A stretch of DNA of 64,000 nucleotides, from NCBI GenBank assembly GCA_902781515.1, contig CACZJU010000006.1:1-64000 (forward strand), in the 5' to 3' direction. The notes below the pieces were generated by a model. It was not told the origin of the DNA, searched no databases, and saw only the letters and a list, made by a program, of their open reading frames with translations. Shown here in pieces: positions 23,497 through 59,723 of this stretch. The position numbers and the translations under genes were made by a program. Position 1 is the stretch's first letter. Each line of letters begins with the position of its first letter. The stretch comes from an uncultured Bacteroidales bacterium. Lineage in GTDB: Bacteria; Bacteroidota; Bacteroidia; Bacteroidales; Bacteroidaceae.

Positions 23497-24531
23497 ATGG
23501 AAGATTTTGATATCAGGGAACAGCGGAATCAGCGGGAAAAGGACTTTGAGAATGCCTTACGCCCACTTAGATTCGAGGATTTCAGCGGACAAACGAAGGT
23601 GACAGACAACCTGCGTGTGTTTGTTGAAGCTGCACGCTATCGTGGCGAGCCGCTCGATCATACGCTGTTGCACGGTCCTCCAGGATTGGGTAAGACCACC
23701 TTGTCTAACATCATTGCCAACGAACTGGGTGTGGGATTTAAAGTAACCAGCGGTCCAGTATTGGATAAGCCTGGTGATTTGGCTGGTCTATTGACTTCGT
23801 TGGAACCTAATGATGTCCTTTTCATCGATGAAATCCATCGCTTGTCTCCCATCGTGGAGGAGTATCTCTACTCGGCAATGGAGGACTATCGTATTGACAT
23901 TATGATTGACAAAGGGCCTTCGGCTCGCTCTATACAGATAGACCTGAACCCATTTACCCTTGTTGGGGCAACAACACGTAGTGGTTTGCTTACAGCCCCT
24001 CTGCGTGCCCGTTTTGGAATCAATCTGCATTTGGAATACTACGATGCTGCTACATTGAAGAAGATTGTCATTCGTTCGGCTTCCATTCTTAATGTGCCCA
24101 TTTCATCGGAGGCTGCAGGCGAGATTGCCAGCCGTAGTCGTGGTACTCCACGTATAGCCAATGCCTTATTGCGACGCGTGCGTGACTTTGCACAAGTTCG
24201 CGGAAATGGAGAGATAGACTTGAAGATTGCTCGCATTGCACTCGAAGCCTTGAATATTGATAAACACGGCCTCGACGAAATCGACAACAAGTTACTGCTG
24301 ACGATTATTGATAAATTTAAGGGTGGACCTGTGGGTATCAACACTATTGCTACTGCAGTTGGTGAGGATGCAGGTACTGTGGAAGAGGTGTACGAACCTT
24401 TCCTCATCAAAGAAGGCTTCATAAAACGTACTCCTCGTGGTCGTGAGGTTACCGAACTGGCATACCAACATCTTGGACGTACGTATGGCACTCGTTTTGG
24501 TACGCCTGAACAGCCAGACCTGTTTGGCTAA
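23497..24531 (+). CDS. ruvB: Holliday junction branch-migration ATPase RuvB
   Basis: 344 aa from ATG 23497; the frame is open back to 23458 but that stretch is the promoter element, so the later start is chosen. AAA+ motor that drives branch migration with RuvA. N-terminal '[15 protein letters not shown]', Walker A 'GPPGLGKTT' near residues 60-68, Walker B 'FIDEIHR' near 108-114, sensor I '[10 protein letters not shown]', arginine finger region 'APLRARFG', and the winged-helix end '[20 protein letters not shown]'. All elements are intact. It is followed by tyrS after a 30-bp AT-rich spacer and probably shares its transcript. Confidence 0.98.
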
Positions 24532-24556
24532 TTGATAATTGACAATTGATAATTAA
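24532..24556 (+). repeat. AT-rich spacer repeat (TTGATAATT/GACAATT type)
   Basis: Alternating TTGATAATT and GACAATT units fill the gap between ruvB and tyrS. The same kind of AT-rich direct repeat recurs at several gene boundaries here (for example 31441-31475, 59641-59720). Confidence 0.5.
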
Positions 24557-31412: not shown

Positions 31413-31440
31413 GCCCATCTCCGCACACTTTCATCCTATT

Positions 31441-31475
31441 ATTTTTTAATTTTTAATTTTTAATTCTTAATTTTG
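31441..31475 (+). promoter_or_regulatory. AT-rich repeat merging into a -7 element at the start codon
   Basis: Tandem TTTTTAA units run into TAATTTTG (31468-31475), followed by CACT and the ATG at 31480. The -33 half is not recognisable. Predicted leaderless transcript. Confidence 0.5.
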
Positions 31476-36812: not shown

Positions 36813-38951
36813 CTATAGTCCTATTTCCTTTATCAGGCGGTCGGCTTTGCCCCAACGGTCGATGAGGTAGAGAACGAAGCGTATGTCAACACCGATGCAG
36901 CGCTGTAGGTCGGGATTGAAGGTGATGTCACCTGACATAGCCTCCCAGTTTCCATCAAAAGCCAGACCTATTAACTCACCTTTACCGTTGAACATAGGCG
37001 AACCGGAGTTTCCTCCAGTAATATCGTTATTGGAGAGGAAACAGAGATGGAGGTCGCCGTCCTTGGCATCGGCATAGCGTCCGAAGTCACGCTGCTTAAG
37101 CAGACTGATGATACTCTCCTCCAGCTTGTAGTCCTCTATCTCGTCCTGTTTGGCAGCCTTGTCGAGCAGGCTCTGCGCATTAGTGAAATAGTCGTAGTGC
37201 TGACCACCTGCTGTGTAGTCTTGAATGAATCCGTAGGAAAGACGCTGCGTGAAGTTGGCATCGCTGTAGTGCGGATTTTCCTGGTCACGCTCCAAGATAG
37301 CCTGCGTCAGCAGATGCTCGTTGTAGTTGATAGTCTGACGGTCAGCACGAATACGGTTCACCAATTCTGTCTGGAAGTCACGAATGCTCTCATAGAACTG
37401 TTTCAGATTTCCATCAAGTTTCAGTTCTTCATCCTTTTCTGGGAGCTGGACAGGCGCTGTTGAGAACAGGGCACGGGCATAAGCTTTTGCATTACCCTTG
37501 AAACGCTCGTCTATATCCTTATATATATTAGGAAGGAACTCCGGCTTCACCTGCTTACGGTAATTATCCAACAGGACAGCCATCGTCTCCTCATCCACTC
37601 GTGCATCATAGTCCTTGTAGAAGGCCTGCAGTTGTTCGCGAGTAAGGGCAATCTCCGTTGAATCCATGTCCGCAGGCTTCGAGGCAAGGATGGCAGCCAC
37701 CCTACGCAGTTCAATGCCTCGCAGGAAGGTCTCGGAGAAGAATCCATAGGCACGTATTGTCTCGAAACGATTGGCATACGCCTTCTCCAGTTCGTTGAAC
37801 ATAGAGCCGAAGCGAGCCTTCAGTCCTTTGTCGGCAGAGTACCAACGACGGATGTCTTTTTCCAGTTTCTGCTTCTGTCCTATCACGTTCAGTTCCTTCA
37901 CAGCCTTGTTCATGCCGATAGAGTTCTTCCAATAGTTAGCCGACGAAGCAAACTTCGATGCATATTTAATGGCAATGGCACGGTCGCTGTCCATCCAGCG
38001 TTTCCACACCTCCTGCTTCTTTCCTCGCACATCAATCATCGACACATTAGTACCATCCACTCTCTCACGAATACCATAACTGCTGAGGTAACGGTCTGTG
38101 CTTCCAGGATAGCCCACTGTCATGCAGTAATCGCCAGGCTGGAAACCCTTGAGACTCACCTTCGCATACCGCTTTGCCTTCAGGGGCACATTATCCTTAG
38201 AATACTCAGCAGGCTTACCGTCAGCATCGGCATAGATGCGGAACACGCTGAAGTCGCATGTCTGACGAGGCCACATCCAGTTATCCGTATCACCGCCGAA
38301 CTTACCCAGCGTCTGCGTGGGAGTAAATACGAGACGAATATCATTATACACCGTATAGATAGAGGCATAATAGGCGTTTCCAGTGTAATACGACTTCACC
38401 AGACAGTATTTACCAGGATTAGCCGCAGTATATTCCTTCTCCACTGCCGTCATCACCGAATCCAGATTCTCCGCATTCAACAGTTTCCGCTCCTTGTCGG
38501 GATTTGCCTTGTAAATCTCGTTCATAGCACTCATCACACGCTCCGTGCACTCTTCCGTACGGTCGAGGAAACGCACGAAGAAACCATCCACTGGTCGTTC
38601 CTCCTCATAGGACTTCGCAGCAAATCCGTTTTTCAGGATATCGTCCTCTGGAGTCGAAAGTTTCTGTATGCCTCCGAAACCGCAGTGATGATTAGTGAAC
38701 ACCAGTCCCTCTGGACTTACCACCACGCCCGAACAGAAGTCGCAGAAGTCCACAACACAATCCTTCAGGCTCTCACCATCGGGATTATAGAGTTGCTGAG
38801 GCGTAAGCTCAAGGCCCAGCTTCTTCATCACTTTAGCCGTCTTCTGGTCTATGCTATTCAGCATCCACATACCCTCGTCGGCTTTTAAAATTGAGAATTG
38901 ACTATTGAAAATTGAAAATTGCAACAGCAGTAATAAGACTATTCGTTTCAT
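36813..38951 (-). CDS. S46 family dipeptidyl-peptidase, DPP7 type
   Basis: 712 aa from ATG 38951, which starts a hydrophobic signal sequence; an ATG at 38981 adds ten residues without need. Periplasmic or secreted serine exopeptidase that removes dipeptides from N-termini for amino-acid fermentation. Triad seen in chymotrypsin-like context: His in 'TNHHCGFGG' (about residue 86), Asp in 'GDTDNWMWPR' (about 217), Ser in 'GGNSGSPMFNGKGEL' (about 647). Eighteen residues after the Ser the sequence reads F-D-G-N-W-E; Gly there is the DPP7 state (DPP11 has Arg), implying hydrophobic rather than acidic P1. Residues ~10-22 of the signal peptide (QFSIFNSQFSILK) come from an AT-rich dispersed repeat. 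Confidence 0.92.
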   Translation of the reverse strand: MKRIVLLLLLQFSIFNSQFSILKADEGMWMLNSIDQKTAKVMKKLGLELTPQQLYNPDGESLKDCVVDFCDFCSGVVVSPEGLVFTNHHCGFGGIQKLSTPEDDILKNGFAAKSYEEERPVDGFFVRFLDRTEECTERVMSAMNEIYKANPDKERKLLNAENLDSVMTAVEKEYTAANPGKYCLVKSYYTGNAYYASIYTVYNDIRLVFTPTQTLGKFGGDTDNWMWPRQTCDFSVFRIYADADGKPAEYSKDNVPLKAKRYAKVSLKGFQPGDYCMTVGYPGSTDRYLSSYGIRERVDGTNVSMIDVRGKKQEVWKRWMDSDRAIAIKYASKFASSANYWKNSIGMNKAVKELNVIGQKQKLEKDIRRWYSADKGLKARFGSMFNELEKAYANRFETIRAYGFFSETFLRGIELRRVAAILASKPADMDSTEIALTREQLQAFYKDYDARVDEETMAVLLDNYRKQVKPEFLPNIYKDIDERFKGNAKAYARALFSTAPVQLPEKDEELKLDGNLKQFYESIRDFQTELVNRIRADRQTINYNEHLLTQAILERDQENPHYSDANFTQRLSYGFIQDYTAGGQHYDYFTNAQSLLDKAAKQDEIEDYKLEESIISLLKQRDFGRYADAKDGDLHLCFLSNNDITGGNSGSPMFNGKGELIGLAFDGNWEAMSGDITFNPDLQRCIGVDIRFVLYLIDRWGKADRLIKEIGL
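38884..38926 (-). repeat. AT-rich repeat encoding part of a signal peptide
   Basis: On the minus strand units such as CAATTTTCAATTTTCAATA and CAATTCTCAATTTT repeat in frame and encode QFSIFNSQFSIL, the hydrophobic core end of the S46 peptidase signal peptide. The same kind of repeat is intergenic elsewhere. Confidence 0.65.
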
Positions 38952-48021: not shown

Positions 48022-50376
48022 ATGAAACTAAGTGAACTGAAAATAGGACAGTCGGCCTGCATAGTAAATGTAGGCGGTGAAGGAGCATTGCGACAGCATC
48101 TGCTTGACATGGGCATGATACCCGGAGCAGAGCTGACGCTGGTACAGTTTGCCCCTATGGGCGACCCGATGGAAGTGCGCATTCATGGCTACGAGCTCAC
48201 CCTGCGCATCGCCGAGGCCCAGGAGATAGAAGTCACCCTATTGGTAGAAAAGGGTTCAGAAGCATCCCCCTCCTCTTGGGAGGGGATAGGGGTAGGCCTT
48301 AAAGAAGAGCACCCCGGTTTGGGTGAAGGCGGTCACTACCACGATGAATCGCCGGAGGCACATACCAAGCCACTGCCCTCAAGTCAGCGACTGACATTTG
48401 CCCTGGCTGGCAACCAGAACTGCGGAAAGACAACCCTCTTCAACCAGCTCACAGGTGCCAACCAGCATGTGGGCAACTTCCCAGGCGTTACCGTAGAACA
48501 TAAATATGGCACCATAAAGGGGCATCCCGAGGCACAGGTTATCGACCTGCCCGGCATCTACAGCCTCTCTCCCTACACGAGCGAAGAGGTGGTAAGCCGC
48601 CGCTACATCCTCGACGAGCATCCCACAGCGATAATAAACATTGTTGATGCCACCAACATCGAGCGCAACCTCTACCTCACGCTGCAACTGATGGAGTTGG
48701 GCGTGCCGATGGTGATTGCACTGAACATCATGGACGAGCTCGAAGCCAATGGTGGTACGGTGCGCATCAACCGCATGGAGTCTCTGCTTGGAGTTCCCGT
48801 AGTGCCCATATCGGCAATGAAGAACGAAGGTGTTGACGAGCTTATAGAACACGCCCTCCACATCGCTCGCTATCAGGAACGTCCACAGCGACAGGACTTC
48901 TGTCATCCCGATGACCACGGAGGCGCTGTTCACCGCTGTCTGCATGCCATCATGCACCTCACCGAAGACCACTGCCAGCGCATAAACATGCCGCTGCGCT
49001 TTGCTGCCTGCAAACTGGCAGAGGGCGATAAGATGGTGGCTGACGCACTGGAACTGACGCAGAACGAACGCGAGACGGTGGAACATATCATCGTGCAGAT
49101 GGAGCAGGAACGCGGTCTCGACCGTCAGGCAGCCATTGCCGACATGCGTTTCCAGTTCATCGAGGCCGTTACCCGTCAGGCCGTTGTCAAGCCTCTCGAA
49201 AGCCGCGAACACATCCGCAGCCGCCGTATCGACCGTGTTCTCACAGGTCGCTGGACTGCCCTGCCCTCCTTCATCGTCATCATGGGACTGGTGTTCTACC
49301 TCACGTTCTCCAGCGTAGGCGTGTGGCTGCAAGACATGTTCCAGGCAGGTGTCGATTGGTTCACTGAAGTCAGCGATCAGGCTCTCACCAACTGGAATAT
49401 AGCCCCTGCCGTCCATTCGCTCATCATCGATGGTGTATATAACGGCGTAGGCACCGTTCTCGTCTTCCTGCCGCTCATCGTGTGCCTGTTCTTCTTCCTC
49501 AGTATGCTTGAGGACACAGGCTACATGGCTCGCATAGCCTTCGTGACCGACAAACTCCTGCGCCGCCTGGGTCTCTCAGGCCGCAGCATAGTACCCCTGC
49601 TCATAGGTTTCGGCTGCTCTGTGCCCAGCGTAATGGCAAGCCGTACCCTTCCCAGTGAGCGCGACCGTCGTATGACCATCCTGCTCACCCCCTTCATGTC
49701 GTGCACAGCCAAGATTCCCATCTATGCATTCTTCGCCGCAGCCTTCTTCCCACACCATGCCGGTCTGGTCATGGCTTCGCTCTATGCCATTGGCATCCTT
49801 GTGGGCATCGTTATGGCTCTGGTGCTGAAACGCACGATGTTCCGAGGCGAACCTGTGCCCTTCGTGATGGAACTCCCCAACTACCGCCTGCCACTGGCGA
49901 AGAACGTGCTGCGACTGCTTTGGGACAAGGCGCGCGACTTCCTGCAGCGCGCCTTCACAGTCATCTTCCTTGCAAGCATCGTAGTGTGGTTCCTGCAGAC
50001 CTTCGACTTCCACATGCAGATGGTCAGCGATGCCCACGACTCCATGCTGGCTGCAGTGGCAGGCGTCATTGCCCCCTTGTTCCAACCCCTCGGACTTGGC
50101 GACTGGCGTATCGTTACAGCCCTTGTCAGCGGTTTTATGGCTAAGGAGACTGTCGTCAGCACACTCGGAGCTCTGTTTGGTGAGGCAACCCTCACTGCCA
50201 TCTTCAGTCCTGTTGTCATCTACGCTCTGCTGGTCTTCTGCCTGCTCTACACACCCTGCGTAGCAGCCATCGCCACCATCCGTCGCGAGCTCGGCGGTCG
50301 CTGGGCAACCTTCGTCGTCGCCATGCAGTGCCTCATCGCCTGGCTCTGCGCCTACCTCGTCATCCTCATTGCATGA
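48022..50376 (+). CDS. feoB: Ferrous iron transporter, FeoA-FeoB fusion
   Basis: 784 aa. Residues 1-75 are a FeoA SH3-like domain ('MKLSELKIGQSACIVNVGGE...LRQHLLDMGMIPGAEL'). A linker of ~50 residues follows, then the FeoB G domain: G1 'GNQNCGKTTLFNQLTG' (about 131-146), G2/G3 'GNFPGVTVEHKYG' and 'VIDLPGIYSL', G4 'LNIMDE'. The C-terminal ~400 residues are the membrane part with Gate motifs 'FGCSVPSVMASRTL' and 'FMSCTAKIPIYAFFAA', the Cys residues proposed to line the Fe(II) path. The linker includes 'SPSSWEGIG' from a G/C palindrome. Inner membrane Fe(II) uptake under anoxia. Followed by an overlapping Cys-rich gene. Confidence 0.97.
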   Translation: MKLSELKIGQSACIVNVGGEGALRQHLLDMGMIPGAELTLVQFAPMGDPMEVRIHGYELTLRIAEAQEIEVTLLVEKGSEASPSSWEGIGVGLKEEHPGLGEGGHYHDESPEAHTKPLPSSQRLTFALAGNQNCGKTTLFNQLTGANQHVGNFPGVTVEHKYGTIKGHPEAQVIDLPGIYSLSPYTSEEVVSRRYILDEHPTAIINIVDATNIERNLYLTLQLMELGVPMVIALNIMDELEANGGTVRINRMESLLGVPVVPISAMKNEGVDELIEHALHIARYQERPQRQDFCHPDDHGGAVHRCLHAIMHLTEDHCQRINMPLRFAACKLAEGDKMVADALELTQNERETVEHIIVQMEQERGLDRQAAIADMRFQFIEAVTRQAVVKPLESREHIRSRRIDRVLTGRWTALPSFIVIMGLVFYLTFSSVGVWLQDMFQAGVDWFTEVSDQALTNWNIAPAVHSLIIDGVYNGVGTVLVFLPLIVCLFFFLSMLEDTGYMARIAFVTDKLLRRLGLSGRSIVPLLIGFGCSVPSVMASRTLPSERDRRMTILLTPFMSCTAKIPIYAFFAAAFFPHHAGLVMASLYAIGILVGIVMALVLKRTMFRGEPVPFVMELPNYRLPLAKNVLRLLWDKARDFLQRAFTVIFLASIVVWFLQTFDFHMQMVSDAHDSMLAAVAGVIAPLFQPLGLGDWRIVTALVSGFMAKETVVSTLGALFGEATLTAIFSPVVIYALLVFCLLYTPCVAAIATIRRELGGRWATFVVAMQCLIAWLCAYLVILIA
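48267..48285 (+). repeat. G/C-rich palindrome inside feoB linker
   Basis: CCCCTCC, five-base loop, GGAGGGG: perfect seven-pair stem. It encodes part of SPSSWEGIG between the FeoA and G domains. Confidence 0.7.
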
Positions 50377-50516
50377 ACCTCCAAAGCATAATCCTCCTAA
50401 CCATTGTCCTCGGTGCTTTCGCCATAGTTGGCTACCGCTACATCCGTCGCCAGAAGAAGAGCGGCGGCTGCGGCTCCTGCAACTGCGGCTGCTCCGACTG
50501 CTCCACCTGCCACTAA
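50373..50516 (+). CDS. FeoB-associated Cys-rich membrane protein
   Basis: 47 aa. ATG at 50373 overlaps the feoB stop as ATGA, so translation is coupled; the longer open frame from 50328 is the shadow of feoB. One membrane helix (LQSIILLTIVLGAFAIVGYRYI) is followed by a basic stretch and a Cys-rich tail, C-G-S-C-N-C-G-C-S-D-C-S-T-C-H. Small proteins of this type sit behind feoB in many bacteria and are thought to help Fe(II) transport or act as redox or metal ligands, taking the place of FeoC. Six cysteines in 15 residues could bind iron or an iron-sulfur cluster; inference. Confidence 0.85.
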   Translation: MNLQSIILLTIVLGAFAIVGYRYIRRQKKSGGCGSCNCGCSDCSTCH

Positions 50517-50526
50517 GCACAAGGCC

Positions 50527-50583
50527 TAGACCTTATTGCCATAAGACCTAGGTCTTATTGGCATAAGCCGTAGAGGTTATCGG
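50527..50583 (+). repeat. 22-bp tandem repeats with 18-bp palindrome
   Basis: Units start at 50527, 50549 and 50571 (third partial), each TAG(A/G)(C/G)(C/G)TTAT... An 18-bp perfect palindrome ATAAGACCTAGGTCTTAT spans 50541-50558. CTTAT and ATAAG arms also pair within each unit. The repeats start 11 bp behind the Feo operon and may serve as its terminator. Confidence 0.65.
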
Positions 50584-50900
50584 CGCGTCGCCGCGTCGCC
50601 GCGTCGCCGTGTCATTCGCACACGCGTTATCACATTATCACATTATCACATTATCACATTATCATTTATAAAAAATCAATTATCATAGACTACAGAGATT
50701 ATACTATATTATATATTATTATTAATAATATATAATATAAAATATATAATTATAATATGTAAGTATAAAATACTACATCCACCATATGAAAATGAGTAAT
50801 GATAACGTGATAATGTGATAATGCGATAATGCCATATCACTTTTTTGGTACAATGATGCAATGAATAATACAAATGCCGCTGCGACGCGGTGACGCGCCG
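50581..50900. repeat. 320-bp nested inverted repeat with octamer arrays and AT-rich core
   Basis: Outer arms: CGGCGCGTCGCCGCGTCGC (50581-50599) is inverted at 50882-50900 with one mismatch; GCGTCGCC repeats three times from 50585 to 50608. Inner arms: TTATCACA four times plus TTATCATT (50627-50666), inverted as AATGATAA-CGTGATAA-TGTGATAA-TGCGATAA (50798-50829). Core: TATTATTAATAATA (50717-50730), perfect palindrome, in an almost pure A+T stretch of ~60 bp. Lies between convergent genes; no coding potential seen. Confidence 0.8.
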
Positions 50901-51012: not shown

Positions 51013-51177
51013 TTACTCCACGTCGAAGTCGTTATCATCTCCCCACAGGTCCCAGCCTTGGTCTTTCTTAGCCAAGTCTGTACCATTACCTTGAGAACCT
51101 ACCATAATAGTTTGGCAGATAGCTTTGCTATCAAGATGAACCACTTTGATTTCTGGAATAATATATGTCTTTTTCAT
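51013..51177 (-). CDS. Small acidic protein, 54 aa
   Basis: Open frame from ATG 51177 to TAA 51013-51015. Protein begins M-K-K-T-Y-I-I-P-E-I-K-V-V-H-L-D, has one Cys (C21) and ends in a Trp/Asp-rich tail (GWDLWGDDNDFDVE). It follows the large secreted-protein gene by 18 bp on the same strand and precedes a good terminator, so both are probably one transcript. A purine run (AAAGGAGGATACGACT) just before the ATG contains AGGAGG, a strong Shine-Dalgarno site that is unusual in this genome and supports real translation. Many Prevotella genomes carry short proteins starting M-K-K-x-Y-x-x-P; I do not know a function. Confidence 0.7.
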   Translation of the reverse strand: MKKTYIIPEIKVVHLDSKAICQTIMVGSQGNGTDLAKKDQGWDLWGDDNDFDVE

Positions 51178-59634: not shown

Positions 59635-59723
59635 CAAAATCTTGAATTAAGAATTAAGAGTTAAGAGTTAAAAATTAAGAAGAATTTTTTTGATTTTTCA
59701 ATTATCAATTATCAATTTGAAAA

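Follow-up and report, generated by a model that had tools for sequence, protein, structure and literature searches.

Several kinds of dispersed or inverted repeat share features with the element described here. REP/BIME sequences and other bacterial extragenic palindromes are dispersed and intergenic, with stems that stay paired, and form families of constant sequence. In the invertible promoters of the Bacteroidales, genes are preceded by inverted repeats with a separation of about 200 bp, and the interior occurs in both orientations. HU proteins bind bent, nicked and cruciform DNA by shape; an expansion of HU-HIG proteins in Bacteroidetes was reportedly described by Burroughs et al. in 2017, with the proteins predicted to target invading or mobile DNA, and to our knowledge no cis-element was described in that work. 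The Foldback/Galileo elements of Drosophila are eukaryotic and kilobases long, and Galileo has a P-superfamily transposase. These elements have inverted arms with internal repeats and are associated with inversions (PMC3573991). BrickBuilt, a MITE of Porphyromonas gingivalis, is present in 19 copies with 23-nt direct repeats between an unlike leader and tail, and has IS5-type ends such as GAGACCTTTGCA (PMC4596501).

The element under study occupies positions 50581–50900 of the window (the whole 64-kb stretch of DNA analysed), in a convergent intergenic site by feoB. The features of the locus are as follows.

48022–50376, plus strand: feoB (FeoA-FeoB), 3′ end towards the element.
50373–50516: 47-aa cysteine-rich ORF read from the sequence, overlapping the feoB stop codon, 3′ end towards the element.
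50518–50583, no strand: three 22-nt palindromic units of the AAGACCTAGGTCTTATTGCCAT type, adjoining the element.
50581–50616, plus strand: outer left array, GCGTCGCC three times at 50585–50608 and then a terminal GTGTCATT.
50627–50666, plus strand: inner left array, TTATCACA four times at 50627–50658 and then TTATCATT at 50659–50666.
50667–50704, no strand: left spacer.
50705–50739, no strand: A+T core palindrome, 17-bp perfect arms and a 1-nt loop, with conserved ends TATATTATATATTA and TAATATATAATATA.
50740–50797, no strand: right spacer.
50798–50836, minus strand: inner right array, the mirror of 50628–50666 (39 nt, 90% complementary).
50873–50900, minus strand: outer right arm, the mirror of 50589–50616; 50878–50900 also mirrors 50581–50603.
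51013–51177, minus strand: 54-aa ORF read from the sequence, 3′ end towards the element.

The three mirror-image layers reported in the initial annotation (outer arms, inner arms and A+T core) are all present, which confirms that two octamer arrays are nested as an inverted repeat about an A+T palindrome of 35 bp. The outer arms (50581–50599 and 50882–50900) are 19 bp long with a single difference and include the three GCGTCGCC units, as described, and the inner arms also agree with that account, the four TTATCACA and one TTATCATT facing the mirrored octamers AATGATAA, CGTGATAA, TGTGATAA and TGCGATAA at 50798–50829. The 14-bp palindrome noted in the core exists but is just the centre of the 35-bp one, the size of which was understated. 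This core is the sole A+T palindrome of its size detected in the window, where just three of ten short tandem arrays identified by script have a mirrored partner, all three in this element. The GC-rich outer arrays, like the inner TTATCACA ones, finish in CATT/AATG towards the core, a boundary found on the inner side in many relatives, and because of these shared ends the outer arrays look like a second array of one kind, nested.

Folded as single-stranded DNA with DNA parameters, the window copy has a predicted energy of −74.8 kcal/mol, compared with −34.3 (sd 3.9) for 100 shuffles (z −10.4). The support for a hairpin-capable structure comes solely from this predicted fold. Repeat detection reported no inverted match between the left and right spacers, and because these seem unpaired a plain cruciform from the core would halt short of the arms.

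The source draft genome (2.46 Mb in 46 contigs, 86% complete) has five core copies on five contigs, which does not fit the suggestion of a site occurring once per replicon. Two copies have TTATCACA-type arms and three ACAACGCT-type arms, and one of the five (E3) fails the arm test described below with a score of 22. These octamer pairs, searched at up to two mismatches, are confined in this genome to the elements, save for one TTATCTCA stretch (contig C21, position 34462) for which no partner was seen. The exact core pattern is found in 12 of 139 genus genomes and in 13 of 399 family genomes (own genome included in both), representing five of 30 genera; a reverse-read control pattern matches two of the 139 genus genomes, the source genome and one other (G083). 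Among 84,980 species genomes scanned there are at least 115 stretches with the core, and of the matches listed 111 are Bacteroidales by title, with 87 Prevotella/Prevotellaceae/Xylanibacter, 24 other Bacteroidales/Bacteroidaceae, and four outside Bacteroidota. The core pattern is also present in three IMG/VR contigs, and no blastn match to the window copy was found among plasmid and phage records. The core interior between the conserved ends varies by copy and is usually palindromic itself. These pattern scans favour exact 14-bp core ends and under-count core-less mirrored arrays, two of which (L186, in Prevotella aff. ruminicola Tc2-24, and L200) have mirrored octamer arrays around a short middle with no A+T core palindrome.

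Elements are about 200–320 bp long and lie inside an ORF in two of 72 tested, and no ATG-initiated ORF in 98 interiors is longer than the maximum of 60 aa. The flanking ORFs of 70 elements are arranged in tandem in 31 cases, divergently in 30 and convergently in nine, including three chance matches outside Bacteroidota (L064, L121 and L123, all divergent). With these three left out, divergent layouts account for 27 of 67 elements versus 20 of 79 background regions (P = 0.08), and convergent layouts for nine of 67 versus 18 of 79 (P = 0.20), and there is no firm orientation bias relative to neighbouring genes. A role as a terminator was rejected on these counts.

Comparison with the described systems gives partial likenesses in each case. 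As with BrickBuilt, the element is found in Bacteroidales, is intergenic, lacks an internal transposase and includes tandem repeats within a multi-copy dispersed repeat (19 copies versus five exact cores); it differs in having 8-nt units in mirror-image arms that vary by copy, and the 23-nt repeat is absent (period 8 in 78/98). No GAGACCTTTGCA ends were found near the element at up to two mismatches, and the window as a whole has eight matches, about as many as chance would give. Inverted arms composed of short tandem repeats are a feature shared with Foldback/Galileo elements, but the present element is only about 200–320 bp long, and we know of no parent transposase for it. REP/BIME sequences are likewise dispersed intergenic palindromes with paired stems, whereas the present element lacks a constant arm sequence and has an 8-bp period and an A+T core. 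Invertible promoters share the inverted repeats upstream of genes, and an interior lying both ways is seen here in sets of different loci; there is no promoter-box enrichment inside and no fixed repeat sequence. The HU-HIG expansion concerns the same protein family as the element's neighbours. Among the top literature matches there is no description of such an element, which is weak evidence of novelty because subscription papers fell mostly outside the scope of the search, and the term HU-HIG occurs as a whole word in one of the papers searched, on a Bacteroides strain.

The element set contains 124 distinct members, 120 of them from Bacteroidales, and 112 of these 120 have enough flank for comparison of the arms (eight do not). 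Each left arm was compared by alignment with the reverse-complemented right arm of the same element and of every other element. The median score is 52 for own pairs versus 18 for cross-pairs, and scores of at least 40 are reached by 98 of the 112 own pairs, 2.4% of cross-pairs and none of 560 shuffles; the four pattern matches outside Bacteroidota, used as negatives, score 18–30. The initial annotation had staked its claim on matching arms occurring together elsewhere, and they do so in these 98 elements. In only 40 of 112 does the own right arm outscore all others, since related elements have octamers in common. A lag of 8 stands alone in the matched arms (identity 0.61 versus 0.20–0.29 at lags 3–13) and is the best lag in 78 of the 98. 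In the 830 kb that make up the element loci there are 146 period-8 arrays no more than 260 bp from a core, 123 of them mirrored; elsewhere in these loci, one of 19 period-8 arrays (298 bp from a core) and five of 57 period-7 arrays are mirrored. The mirrored octamer array therefore belongs with the element and does not reflect a general short-repeat habit of the loci. With 65 distinct octamers in 136 arms, what recurs is the architecture (an A+T palindrome, two spacers and mirrored 8-bp arrays), and the octamer varies by copy.

Independent variation of the two arrays between close strains, which the initial annotation had named as a refutation of its claim, gave a mixed picture: among 11 related pairs, both arms changed jointly in two, one arm changed in six, and the shared arm was unchanged in three. 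At a locus 92% identical between Caecibacteroides pullorum (L126) and Candidatus Bacteroides merdavium (L171), AATTACAA is replaced by AATGACAA in both arms, and L141 and L153 differ in both arms with spacings of 7 and 8. Single-arm changes of one to several bases distinguish L126/L170, L087/L109, L109/L133, L071/L089, L096/L130 and L108/L143. These pairwise comparisons therefore indicate that the arms are coupled and not locked, drifting singly and agreeing in the long run.

Copies are dispersed. In two sets, each made up of different loci and not of one locus in one strain, the interior is found both ways round with respect to the flanks. In Tc2-24 the interior of L094 is inverted relative to those of L078, L100 and L132 with respect to a shared outer flank, and in RUG13792 that of L102 is inverted relative to L140; the switch in orientation falls inside the arrays in both sets. 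L140 and L159, from one genome, have the interior in common from array to array and unrelated flanks. Copy number within genomes, near-identical interiors, unrelated flanks and the ending of similarity within the arrays all bear out the non-autonomous dispersed repeat that was one of the initial suggestions. Tc2-24 also contains single ATTGGACA arrays with no partner in the flanking sequence examined (L192, L194 and L196), each starting with TGATTGGACA, which may overlap a stop codon at L192 and L196. At L076 there appear by eye to be two array pairs in interleaved instead of nested order.

The association with HU-HIG genes was unforeseen in the initial annotation. Several HU-like proteins were noticed among the neighbours of 25 elements, and a profile built from five of these was compared with all ORFs of at least 60 aa in the element loci. 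It gave 24 matches (23 distinct, since L060 and L166 are one locus; L087, L109, L117 and L133 form one group), all situated 216–797 bp from the core and all with the 5′ end towards it, and PF18291 scored above cut-off in all ten profile matches tested. In an unpicked scan of neighbours (the longest ORF within 950 bp on either side of each element, compared with Pfam; automatic lists less one duplicate each), PF18291 is present in 16 of 120 neighbours with the 5′ end towards the element, and the next families in three. Among 72 neighbours facing the element with the 3′ end it is absent from the 25 families listed, where single Pfam matches could be hidden, and the HU-HIG profile matches none of the 72. 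The difference between 5′- and 3′-facing neighbours has a Fisher P of 6e-4 (2e-3 if the group of four is treated as a single case), and HU-HIG is the sole neighbour family that stands out.

Counted from the genes, PF18291 has 11 matches in the source genome, eight in Tc2-24, 20 in P. communis E15-14 and 24 in P. ruminicola KHT3 (a few being short and plain-HU-sized), and zero to two in each of 14 genomes from other families of the order. Of the 63 matches in the four genomes 59 were examined, and 53 have at least 500 bp of upstream sequence. A strict detector finds an A+T palindrome with matched arms upstream of ten of the 53, and counting weaker or 7-bp arrays and two weak-armed core motifs gives 16 (P. 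communis 8/19, KHT3 4/20, Tc2-24 2/7 and the source genome 2/7). A 400-kb sample of P. communis contains one A+T palindrome, which has arms and is followed by a leader sequence that matches the one at an HU-HIG gene. At 15 of 16 HU-HIG loci tested TANNTTTG, a Bacteroidota-type promoter box, is situated between element and start codon, compared with 9% expected by shuffling. The upstream regions of HU-HIG genes in these genomes are thus strongly enriched for the element, on the far side of the promoter. In a wider set built on the top-ranking genes from a search of 21 genomes (29 of 30 loci retrieved, 27 with enough upstream sequence), three of 27 upstream regions are positive.

Several observations limit this association. 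Only 23 of 120 elements have an HU-HIG neighbour, and about four fifths do not, including the window copy, no match to the HU-HIG profile being found in the window. Most PF18291 genes have no element (16/53 with one, weak ones counted), and the number of HU-HIG genes does not separate nine genomes with the core from 12 without. The median arm score is 45 at HU-HIG loci (n = 22) versus 54 elsewhere (n = 90; P = 0.002), so the arms are more poorly matched there, the opposite of what a special constraint would lead one to expect. Four P. communis paralogues (L241, L245, L249 and L257) are 99–100% identical over the first 125 residues, the DNA-binding region, and adjoin elements with the unrelated octamers CAAATGAC, TGACATCG, CCGTTTCG and CCCTAACG, respectively; because near-identical domains adjoin four different octamers, the element is unlikely to be a sequence-specific operator of the protein encoded beside it.

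The best reading is that the element is kept by its architecture and not its sequence, with HU-HIG loci as its home. The window copy would then be an orphan of a dispersed, non-coding, foldback-type palindrome of Prevotella and close Bacteroidaceae that has a structural-site role with HU-HIG proteins, a reading that we favour tentatively and at rather less than even confidence. Its natural role would be that of a DNA-structure site (a hairpin, a cruciform or looped inverted arms) for HU-type proteins, with shape counting over sequence, and the element might act on the neighbouring HU-HIG promoter; binding by shape would fit arms that need to match but can have any sequence. Arms would drift singly and then be brought back into agreement by exchange at the DNA level, through inversion or template switching across a hairpin, which would leave the octamer itself free to change, and copies such as that at the feoB site would be scattered relatives of the HU-HIG site. 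Arm re-matching together with shape reading at the promoter is the mechanism that we infer for HU-HIG loci; the fuller proposal that these loci hold private mirrored arrays, drifting yet re-matched and read by shape, with orphans that tie or mark distant loci, is doubtful. The excess of one-arm over joint changes (six versus two of 11 pairs) and the absence of a target-site duplication count against the structural-site reading, as does the poorer arm matching at HU-HIG loci.

If it is correct, the element would be the first candidate DNA partner for the HU-HIG proteins, a family that is numerous in the genomes of this group and poorly explained, and would offer a natural example of structure that is preserved while sequence is not. 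Because of the counter-evidence at HU-HIG loci and the non-pairing spacers, we hold it just slightly above the alternative of a selfish foldback-type MITE with no host function, itself plausible and also short of probable, that spreads by a transposase or by recombination and has its arms homogenised as a by-product, HU-HIG upstream regions being merely a frequent landing site or refuge. The dispersed copies, the location between genes (2/72 inside an ORF), the two elements close together at L074, the two nested layers of the window copy and the better matching of arms away from HU-HIG loci all agree with such a repeat. The mirrored arms resemble the terminal inverted repeats of a MITE, though with variable sequence, but there are no constant termini, and no target-site duplication was found in 97 elements (mean longest shared flank repeat 3.44 versus 3.30, sd 0.09, for re-paired flanks), in what is a weak test given the fuzzy arm ends. 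A pure landing site also leaves the unique standing of HU-HIG among the neighbours unexplained. Even as a mere selfish repeat, the element would be a bacterial counterpart of foldback elements in which the arm-matching process is measurable.

It is improbable that the element is an invertible switch (inverton), with the arms as inversion sites and an interior that flips its neighbours on or off. The two sets of different loci with the interior in both orientations and the position upstream of promoters at HU-HIG genes could fit such a switch, but the octamers are too varied for one enzyme and the 98 interiors are not rich in the TANNTTTG box, with 16 seen versus 24.2 expected; an invertible promoter was rejected for want of this enrichment. 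Action as RNA, with the arms pairing into a long stem that serves as an insulator, decay or antisense element, is slightly less probable again. It would account for the strong predicted strand fold (with DNA parameters only) and for arms that tolerate sequence change if paired, but convergent sites are the rarest class (9/70) and the element lies upstream of the promoter at HU-HIG genes. A known structured RNA was rejected, the element matching no Rfam family and the window yielding only a tRNA. The replication origin, iteron or partition site of the initial annotation, whose interpretation overall stands in part, as to the dispersed repeat and not as to replication, is very improbable: iteron-like tandem repeats do lie beside an A+T-rich region, but there are five copies in one genome with no constant octamer, a coarse skew profile has no sustained sign change (a weak test in 64 kb) where a switch at the element had been suggested, plasmids and phages yield no blastn match to the window copy, and the proposed DnaA-box resemblance fails in that relatives' octamers are unrelated and the window contains about as many near-matches to TTATCCACA as expected by chance.

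Downstream of feoB, the nearest relative (G044, locus L200, 80% identity) has a mirrored array with another octamer and no A+T core. It is the exception among 27 relatives with full flank (of 29 scanned; the sequences of L206 and L215 end too early), the other 26 having no mirrored array there. Units like the 22-nt palindromes adjoining the window copy seem by eye to be present also beside the other four copies in the genome and in P. communis HU-HIG leaders. The 22-nt unit array was rejected as a general neighbour of the elements, having only a weak excess (0.301 at lag 22 versus 0.256, 208 flanks), with five of the 208 flanks strongly of this type, four at lag 22 and one at lag 21. The window also contains many short A+T-rich period-7 arrays, such as those at 24529–24554, 31439–31474, 38887–38921 and 59644–59681, and none of the three passing a stricter script is mirrored.

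Several cores and HU-HIG genes are located at contig ends (L011 at position 1 of contig C14 in the source genome, L027 on G044:C19, and G103:C3, G103:C7 and G015:C68). Elements and HU-HIG loci may break assemblies, and the element seems to mark breakpoints of Prevotella assemblies. A search of solved structures gave no match for one HU-HIG protein. The P. communis proteins L241, L245, L249, L257 and L259 are 98–100% identical over their first 125 residues and have variable Gly/Asn/Ser-rich tails ending in GPVNP, and at L071 (positions 320–1183) an HU-HIG domain is fused to a CHB_HEX_C (chitobiase C-terminal) domain.
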